Below, piece by piece: positions 5,876-6,962 of a DNA stretch of 10,000 nt (positions are counted from its first letter, which is position 1; the number at the start of each line of letters is the position of its first letter). The notes below the pieces were generated by a model. The model had not been told where the DNA came from. It was given only the letters and a program-made list of their open reading frames with translations, and made no database searches. This DNA is from Rheinheimera sp. (GTDB lineage Bacteria; Pseudomonadota; Gammaproteobacteria; Enterobacterales; Alteromonadaceae): contig NZ_JAIWOI010000156.1 of NCBI RefSeq assembly GCF_020217005.1, forward strand, positions 1-10,000, given 5' to 3'. The position numbers were made by a program, and so were the translations under genes.

Positions 5876-5905
5876 TTCAGCGGTGATGCACATTTAGTCT
5901 CAGCC

Positions 5906-5934
5906 AAAAAAATGCCCGGCTGATAAGGCCGGGC
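5906..5934 (-). terminator. intrinsic terminator reading on the minus strand
   Basis: A perfect 7-bp stem, GCCCGGC (5914-5920) with GCCGGGC (5928-5934), has a 7-nt loop. On the minus strand it is followed by AT and seven Ts (5912-5906), a textbook intrinsic terminator. On the plus strand the bases after the stem are CAGAACGTGG, with no T-run, so it is not a good terminator for tamB. It lies 254 nt beyond the cmoM stop, which is unusually far for that gene alone. Confidence 0.85.
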
Positions 5935-5943
5935 CAGAACGTG

Positions 5944-5963
5944 GTCTTTGGATGGGCAAAGAC
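5944..5963 (-). other. stem-loop inside the candidate small RNA
   Basis: GTCTTTG (5944-5950) and CAAAGAC (5957-5963) are exact reverse complements around a 6-nt loop (GATGGG on the plus strand, CCCATC in the minus-strand RNA). It sits 9 nt before the terminator stem in the minus-strand direction. Confidence 0.6.
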
Positions 5964-5973
5964 TTCGGAGTTC

Positions 5974-6000
5974 GACAACAACAGCAGAATCATTGTTGTC
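5974..6000 (-). other. stem-loop inside the candidate small RNA
   Basis: GACAACAA (5974-5981) and TTGTTGTC (5993-6000) are exact reverse complements with an 11-nt loop. This gives an 8-bp stem, AT-rich towards the loop. Together with 5944-5963 and 5914-5934 it makes three consecutive stem-loops separated by about 10 nt, more structure than an ordinary spacer would be expected to show. Confidence 0.6.
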
Positions 6001-6097
6001 ATAGGGTCACAACACGTAACAGAGCGTTTATCCGCCTACGAAATCAAGGCGCCTTCCTGGCTGGGTGCAGACTTCCCACTTGATTGCATATCTTGCA

Positions 6098-6116
6098 AAT
6101 GATAACCGTTCTCATT
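6098..6116 (-). promoter_or_regulatory. Fur box (ferric uptake regulator operator)
   Basis: The plus-strand sequence is AATGATAACCGTTCTCATT. Its core, TGATAAC-C-GTTCTCA (6100-6114), is a 7-1-7 inverted repeat with six of seven positions symmetric. It matches 11 of 14 positions of the Fur 7-1-7 consensus TGATAAT-N-ATTATCA. A further Fur-like half site (TGATTATC on the minus strand, 6130-6123) adjoins it. It lies just downstream of the minus-strand -10 at 6126-6131, covering the predicted start, so iron-loaded Fur would repress that promoter. No plus-strand gene follows it. Confidence 0.65.
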
Positions 6117-6125
6117 ACGAAGATA

Positions 6126-6153
6126 ATCATAACAGCTTTATTCACCACCGCAA
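6126..6153 (-). promoter_or_regulatory. extended -10 promoter, minus strand, for the candidate small RNA
   Basis: On the minus strand, TTGCGG (6153-6148) is followed after 16 nt by TATGAT (6131-6126), with TG one base upstream of the -10 (6134-6133). The -10 matches five of six consensus bases and the TGn extension compensates for a -35 that matches only three. Transcription is predicted to start near 6119, inside or beside the Fur box. Confidence 0.55.
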
Positions 6154-6188
6154 CTGTTTTTTCAGATTTAATTCAGGGCAAAGTAAAA

Positions 6189-6962
6189 TTAAATAGCGCG
6201 CAGCAACAGGTGTTGATACCGCCCTATCGAAGCATAAGGCTCTTGTCTGTTGTATTGCAGTTCGACCTGCAACAACTTCTCAAATTCTGTTTCCTGCTCT
6301 GAACGATCACGCAGGTAATCATGAAAACAGCGCACGCCGGTTTTGCCTTCAATAACAAAACCTGCTTCTTTACACCAACGATACACATCTTCTGGTTGCA
6401 ATGGATTTTGTGGGCTTAAACTGACCTTCTTCTTAAAGGCCAAATCACGCAGCACATAGTTAAAATTGCCATAAATGATATTACTCAGGCGTTTGGCGTC
6501 TTTGTTATAAAACATCAGCGACACCAGACCACCTGTTTGTACTAAAGCCCGCAGTTGTTTAATGGCTTCAGCAGGTTCGTGCAACCATTCCAGTACAGCA
6601 TGGCATAGCACCACTGGAAAGGCTGGCCATTGCTGGTCGGCCAATTGCTGTAACGCCAGAGCATGGCACTCAATTTGTGTATCGACACCACGGGTTTTGG
6701 CCTCTTCGAGTGCCATATCCAGCATATCCTGCGACAGATCGGTTAAAGTGACCTGATGGCCCTGCTGCGCCAGCGCCAGCGCCAACTGACCCTGCCCTGC
6801 ACCTACATCCAGTATGCGGCTTGGGGTTGCTAAATCGGCGCATTCGGCAAAGTCTCGCAGCAACACTGCCTGACGCAACCGGCCTTTGGTGGTCTGATAA
6901 ATATTCTTCTGAAATTTGCCCGCTATACCGTCAAAATTGCGGTCCTGCTGTTTTTTACTCAC
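6189..6962 (-). CDS. cmoM: CmoM, tRNA 5-carboxymethoxyuridine methyltransferase
   Basis: A protein of 257 residues, near the 261 of E. coli CmoM (SmtA). It is a class I SAM methyltransferase. Motif I is LDVGAGQGQ (51-59), the acidic residue binding the ribose is D75 in TLTDLS, and the post-motif CHAVLEW lies at 120-126. Family-specific stretches are DRNFDGIAGKF at the N-terminus, GKTGVRCFHDYLR (206-218) and RQEPYASIGRYQH (239-251), all close to E. coli. The enzyme methylates the carboxyl group of cmo5U34 to mcmo5U34 in tRNAs reading four-codon boxes, downstream of CmoA and CmoB. The start is GTG at 6962, preceded by AGGTGAG (6978-6972) with 9-nt spacing. It is the last gene of a minus-strand operon, 25 nt after nif3. 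No terminator is seen directly after it; the first is at 5934-5906. Confidence 0.95.
   Translation of the reverse strand: MSKKQQDRNFDGIAGKFQKNIYQTTKGRLRQAVLLRDFAECADLATPSRILDVGAGQGQLALALAQQGHQVTLTDLSQDMLDMALEEAKTRGVDTQIECHALALQQLADQQWPAFPVVLCHAVLEWLHEPAEAIKQLRALVQTGGLVSLMFYNKDAKRLSNIIYGNFNYVLRDLAFKKKVSLSPQNPLQPEDVYRWCKEAGFVIEGKTGVRCFHDYLRDRSEQETEFEKLLQVELQYNRQEPYASIGRYQHLLLRAI

Follow-up and report, generated by a model that had tools for sequence, protein, structure and literature searches.

The locus analysed in this work raises the question of whether the gap between tamB and cmoM in a Rheinheimera genome encodes a small RNA (sRNA) that is controlled by Fur and spares iron. The window, which is the whole stretch of DNA that was analysed, is a complete contig of 10 kb (G000:C273) from a draft genome of 3.9 Mb. 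The gene order that was identified by profile search consists of tamA and tamB on the plus strand, the gap, then cmoM, a Nif3-like gene, and a glycosyltransferase-like gene on the minus strand, and a gene for a TrhA/hemolysin III family protein on the plus strand. The CmoM model scores best for the cmoM product (293.8 bits), yet this score is under the model cut-off of 366 bits. The called start of cmoM is GTG. The size of the gap in the first-pass annotation was confirmed, and the features in and beside the gap are as follows.

5876-6188, the tamB-cmoM gap of 313 bp.
6189..6962, minus strand, cmoM, the upstream neighbour of the RNA, outside the RNA gene and kept in 12/12 subclade genomes.
6126..6153, minus strand, promoter read directly from the sequence, with -35 TTGCGG at 6153-6148, a 16-nt spacer, and a TGn extended -10 TATGAT at 6131-6126.
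6116..6098, not assigned to a strand, putative Fur box AATGAGAACGGTTATCATT, which overlaps the predicted transcription start.
5906..6119, minus strand, candidate small RNA gene of about 213 nt, conserved in the alignment of 12 genomes, with its start predicted from the promoter.
6042..6085, minus strand, 5' branched hairpin AATCAAG...CTTGATT that encloses GGG/CCC and GCC/GGC stems, with 13 invariant pairs and one gap cell.
6065..6079, minus strand, segment A, GTGGGAAGTCTGCAC, a loop that is complementary to the predicted 5' end of sodB mRNA, TGCAGACCCCAT.
6033..6043, minus strand, segment B, TTTCGTAGGCG, with complementarity to the ribosome-binding region of sodB, CGCCTACGGAG, and not kept in G008.
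6006..6020, minus strand, small hairpin GTTAC...GTGAC, paired in 12/12 genomes and invariant.
5974..6000, minus strand, hairpin GACAACA...TGTTGTC, with a loop deletion in two genomes and an intact stem.
5944..5963, minus strand, hairpin 6, GTCTTTG-CCCATC-CAAAGAC, invariant and complementary to sdhC GATGGGCAAG and fumA GGAAGGGCA.
5906..5934, minus strand, intrinsic terminator with a 7-bp GC stem (5934-5914), present in 12/12 genomes, and T7 (5912-5906).

The extended -10 element of the promoter (TGTTATGAT) is good. The -35-like TTGCGG is weak (3/6 to the consensus), and the minus-strand promoter is absent from the list of the consensus promoter scan. The promoter sequence GCTGTTATGAT is invariant in 12/12 aligned genomes, and the extended -10 promoter is present as had been claimed. 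The transcription start that is predicted from this promoter lies at about 6119-6116. The Fur box that had been placed at this start is also present. It exhibits 0 mismatches to a loose Fur consensus (AATGANAANNNTTNTCATT), and it is conserved in the 11 relatives with one mismatch in 10 of them and two in G010. The 800 kb scanned of the related genome G015 contained no site with fewer than two mismatches to the loose consensus, and block shuffles gave 0.0 (0 mismatches) and 0.4 (1 mismatch) sites per 800 kb. On sequence grounds, the Fur box of the window is not a chance match. A stricter Fur consensus gave no convincing site in the same 800 kb of G015. This sample is without a known iron-uptake promoter of the genus and contains no strong Fur box on which a positive control for the genus could be based. 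Similar Fur boxes were identified at seven loci of other genera, and evident transport genes lie downstream at 2/7. At one of these (L070, in a different genus of the family) the gene encodes a siderophore-type TonB-dependent receptor, and at the other (L013) a solute-binding protein. The remaining three of the five loci that were scanned precede proteins without known function by Pfam. The putative Fur box of the window lies at a dedicated promoter, as is expected of iron-sparing sRNAs.

The gap was used as a query against 60 relatives and was found in 12 of the 22 genus genomes, its own included, and the identity in the 11 others is 82-94%. Outside the genus, two matches cover 32 and 23 bases, over the Fur box. 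The 12 genomes form a subclade that is defined by the identity of their cmoM to that of the window (90-97%, against 68-71% in the other 10 genus genomes). The RNA lies directly after cmoM in 12/12 subclade genomes and in 0/10 of the other genus genomes. These 10 genomes exhibit no RNA within 450 bases after cmoM, and the rest of their DNA gave no match at E 0.01. The mean pairwise identity of the RNA is 94.2% over 217 aligned columns in 12 genomes, against 64.0% for the four-fold sites of cmoM, and the RNA is more conserved in 66/66 genome pairs. The alignment across relatives, which had been proposed as a check, also exhibits the extended -10, the Fur box (1-2 mismatches in relatives), the hairpins, and the terminator in 12/12 subclade genomes. 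Judged by this conservation, the locus is a real conserved gene. A chance match of these elements, with nothing transcribed, is hardly conceivable. The terminator scan found 1 terminator against 0.9 expected in shuffles, and the RNA fold energy (z = -1.77) is unremarkable alone. Both are near chance, so conservation had to decide, and it is far above that of neutral sites.

The two perfect stem-loops that had been reported are present and kept in 12/12 genomes, as are the GC terminator stem and, in the window, its seven Ts. The predicted transcript of about 213 nt agrees with the earlier figure of about 214 nt. Of 39 base pairs in 12 genomes, 38 never vary, and all 467 cells are paired. The search for compensatory stem changes that had been proposed gave none, since the stems hardly vary, and the 12 genomes offer no covariation to count. 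The gene might instead encode a small protein, either in a 23-codon frame (MRTVIICKICNQVGSLHPARKAP) whose ATG lies inside the Fur box or in a frame located at column 121 of the alignment. In 11/12 genomes the 23-codon frame starts with ATG, and it has one shared stop, but its start is ATA in G010 and its stop sits in an invariant stem. The start of the column-121 frame is lost in G016, and that frame is shifted in G008 and reads through the terminator. Neither frame has an evident Shine-Dalgarno sequence (by eye), and the variable columns by codon position are 5/3/7 for the 23-codon frame and 7/2/4 for the column-121 frame. Both frames were rejected on this evidence of start, frame, and codon position, and a small-protein gene is very unlikely. 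An intrinsic terminator with no conserved coding frame is also what is expected of iron-sparing sRNAs.

The first-pass annotation had placed the sRNA between tamB and cmoM. The cmoM side of this placement stands, as cmoM is the neighbour in 12/12 genomes, and the tamB side does not hold beyond 3/12. The RNA unit is therefore independent of tamB. The constant presence of cmoM upstream could be read as a sign that the element belongs to cmoM as its 3' untranslated region or terminator, or else acts in cis as a leader of the next gene. The RNA, however, has its own promoter and Fur box, and an inverted repeat separates cmoM from this promoter in at least 5 of the 12 genomes (by eye). The gene downstream varies, and tamB, where it is present (3/12), lies on the opposite strand. 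Both forms of this explanation are most improbable, and an independent sRNA gene is the preferred reading.

RyhB has a Fur box at its promoter, an intrinsic terminator, and targets of the sodB, sdhC, and fumA type. The RNA of the window shares the Fur box at the promoter and the intrinsic terminator, and sodB, sdhC, and fumA-type targets are predicted for it. Unlike RyhB, it has no sequence match to that family, and its length is about 213 nt against 67 positions in the RyhB model. In an Rfam scan of the window and 11 relatives, no family reached its gathering score. The RyhB model (RF00057) gave no match in the window up to an E-value of 5, and its best score in the genome of the window was 22.4 bits against a cut-off of 55. 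In 60 genomes, searched with stricter filters that are able to lose weak matches, the RyhB model was over the cut-off in 5, which comprise 0/36 genomes of the same family and 5/24 of other families of the order. The reported absence of a visible RyhB core is thus borne out. The covariance search with RyhB and PrrF models that had been proposed brought neither family to its gathering score. PrrF (RF00444, Pseudomonas) resembles the RNA in its 5'-end Fur box and GC terminator, which carry a weak alignment of 22.1 bits against a gathering score of 90, whereas the middle of PrrF is largely unaligned or mispaired. Anti-hemB (RF02837, Burkholderia ncS04) resembles its 3'-end hairpin and terminator with 29.2 bits, which is under the gathering score of 49.5. 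This lead was dropped because the match consists of the hairpin and terminator, and ncS04 is listed without a significant change in low iron in Table 2 of PMC5688073.

Fur-controlled sRNAs that are not homologous to each other are already known, as two papers describe (PMC7377471; PMC4144887). BrrF of Burkholderia cenocepacia is a low-iron sRNA whose sequence is unrelated to RyhB and whose predicted targets include sdhC and sodB (PMC7377471). The RNA of the window is like BrrF in both respects. HrrF of Haemophilus differs in its length of about 97 nt, its locus between pmbA and hpt, its restriction to Pasteurellaceae, and its reported targets mod, asn, and nrdB (PMC4144887). With BrrF and HrrF as precedents, the RNA is classed with sRNAs of this kind and not as RyhB. 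The literature listing for Rheinheimera small RNAs and Fur contained only papers that look unrelated by their entries, and that for RyhB and iron in Alteromonadales contained one Shewanella review. The suggestion of an undescribed RNA of this lineage is in keeping with the missing Rfam family and with these listings.

The RNA is probably a Fur-repressed, trans-acting sRNA that does the job of RyhB in one Rheinheimera subclade, and the interpretation in the first-pass annotation is supported as far as sequence reaches. When iron is present, Fur would occupy the box at the start site and transcription would be blocked. When iron is absent, the RNA of about 213 nt would be made and would end at the T7 terminator. 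A T7 terminator is of the kind found in Hfq-dependent sRNAs. On the sodB leader, segment A would then pair with the predicted 5' end and segment B with the Shine-Dalgarno region, and hairpin 6 would pair through its CCCAUC loop just upstream of the starts of sdhC and fumA. Repression is expected because three of the predicted sites (sodB site B, sdhC, and fumA) overlap ribosome-binding regions and the fourth (sodB site A) overlaps the predicted mRNA 5' end. The pairing would block ribosome binding or hasten mRNA decay, and iron would be spared.

The predicted pairing was compared with a background of 667 gene starts of G015, which make up a sample of about 17% of that genome and were scanned at equal step. 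Nine iron-related genes (sdhC, sodB, fumA, acnB, acnD, leuC, bfr, ftnA, and dps) were paired with three RNA segments. Four of these 27 pairings are each matched by at most 14/667 background genes, although the comparison is not a clean test because the segments were chosen following an initial inspection. Pairing as strong as that of sodB with segment A (GTGGGAAGTCTGCAC to TGCAGACCCCAT at the predicted mRNA 5' end) was found in 7/667 background genes, and as strong as that of sodB with segment B (TTTCGTAGGCG to CGCCTACGGAG at the Shine-Dalgarno region) in 3/667. The corresponding counts for hairpin 6 are 14/667 with sdhC (site GATGGGCAAG) and 10/667 with fumA. The fumA site GGAAGGGCA is exact in 5/7 genomes, and the other two read GGAAGGGTA (L185) and AGAAGGGCA (L187). 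Across seven genomes, segment A gives the best sodB site four times and segment B twice, and the best site is a different one in G008, where segment B is not kept and sodB site B is still present. No consistent pairing site with the RNA was found in acnB, bfr, or acnD, and the results for leuC, ftnA, and dps are mixed. Dinucleotide-shuffled RNAs reached the joint score of sodB, sdhC, and fumA in 23/300 cases, and in 68/300 by hybrid energy. On energies alone, the target pairing is only a lead.

With accessibility included in the ranking, the genes that match or beat the candidate number 36/667 for sodB, 251/667 for sdhC, and 9/667 for fumA, and the fumA optimum lies at RNA positions 111-121, away from hairpin 6. 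Alone, this prediction is only suggestive. The strongest single predicted partner among the 667 genes is the gene start at G015 L167:16449 (+), with -15.1 kcal/mol, and the product of this gene appears zinc-ribbon-like by eye.

The leaders of the 12 genus genomes with the RNA were also contrasted with those of the 10 without it, and the G015 RNA was used throughout. The sodB leader exhibits CGCCTACGGAG in 12/12 genomes with the RNA and in 0/10 without it, where it reads CGCCGATGGAG or [CT]GTCAGTGGAG. The sdhC leader exhibits GATGGGCAAG in 12/12 genomes with the RNA, and in those without it the sequence is GATAGGCAAG (7 genomes), CATGGGCAAG (2), or CATAGGCAAG (1). The mean pairing energies with and without the RNA are -17.9 and -9.7 kcal/mol for sodB site B, -17.6 and -13.2 kcal/mol for sodB site A, and -16.9 and -12.1 kcal/mol for sdhC. 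Shuffled RNAs reached the largest window drop in 1/400 (sodB), 54/400 (sdhC), and 0/400 (both) cases, with a statistic that was picked after the sequences were viewed. With the difference of minima as an alternative statistic, shuffles reached 21/400 (sodB), 153/400 (sdhC), and 34/400 (joint). For fumA, the weaker pairing in genomes without the RNA was predicted before those sequences were viewed. Its pairing with hairpin 6 is -17.9 kcal/mol in 7 genomes with the RNA, which are those compared among the 12 of the subclade, and -12.0 kcal/mol in the 10 without it. One of the seven (L187) reaches only -12.1 kcal/mol. Five control starts at the same loci exhibit a drop of at most 3.0, of which two, in or beside the sdh genes, are doubtful starts. 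The complementarity of the sodB, sdhC, and fumA leaders to the RNA is lineage-specific, in a contrast that rests on one evolutionary split and few controls, and it adds evidence for these leaders as predicted targets. The target prediction against iron-enzyme mRNAs that had been proposed gives three candidates, whose complementarity is stronger in the RNA-bearing subclade.

A Fur-repressed sRNA could still have other main targets, with the complementarity to sodB, sdhC, and fumA incidental or secondary. The modest accessibility ranks, the 23/300 shuffles that reach the joint score, and the stronger predicted partners among the 667 genes (top -15.1 kcal/mol), which cover about 17% of one genome, all point in this direction. 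They are set against the four of 27 segment tests in which no more than about 2% of background genes do as well, and the strengthening in one lineage of sodB, sdhC and, as predicted, fumA. We regard other main targets as unlikely, and iron sparing through the three leaders as the better reading. It is quite possible, if somewhat doubtful, that the subclade has gained a RyhB analogue of its own, with a sequence unrelated to that of any Rfam family, and that the sodB, sdhC, and fumA leaders changed with it. If this is true, the contrast between RNA-bearing and RNA-less genomes would naturally record how an iron-sparing network is put together. The two groups also allow a comparison, within one genus, of how an sRNA and its targets become matched. 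The question of iron sparing arises in this family because the RyhB model has no candidate over the cut-off in the 36 family genomes examined, and a lineage-restricted candidate with named targets makes post-transcriptional iron sparing in the family directly testable.

The wider distribution of the RNA was searched with a covariance model (R1) in 246 family genomes. Full-length scores of 272-284 bits were obtained in the six subclade genomes among the matches listed. Beyond these, a decayed copy in G010 scores highest (30.7 bits), and the remainder score 27 bits or less. Of these weak matches, the ones viewed as alignments consist mainly of the Fur box or of the terminator. L070 (1501-1733) was considered as a full-length homologue and rejected, as it is actually the promoter of the TonB receptor with its signal-peptide codons. 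These codons can fold into a hairpin whose loop is likewise CCCAT, which is probably a coincidence. The exact 20-mer of hairpin 6 is present in 9 stretches among 84,980 species genomes, of which seven are Rheinheimera and two are Gammaproteobacteria MAGs. Distant blastn gave no match in the plasmid collection, and the hairpin pattern gave 0 matches in viral contigs.

The inverted repeat between cmoM and the RNA promoter is long and near-perfect in at least five subclade genomes (L018-L022, by eye). In L018 and L019, for example, it comprises AACGGGGTCAGCTCATATG and the complement of this sequence. It resembles either a dispersed repeat or a terminator that serves cmoM separately. The decayed second copy in G010 (L015 1431-1582; G010:C49:42958-43109) covers the 3' part of the RNA, and the stem of its terminator is broken. 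About 18 kb separate it from the intact copy, and it lies upstream of a protein of about 127 aa, which is also encoded downstream of the intact RNA in G001 (L004). This protein is presumably PAS-like and is reminiscent of photoactive yellow protein.
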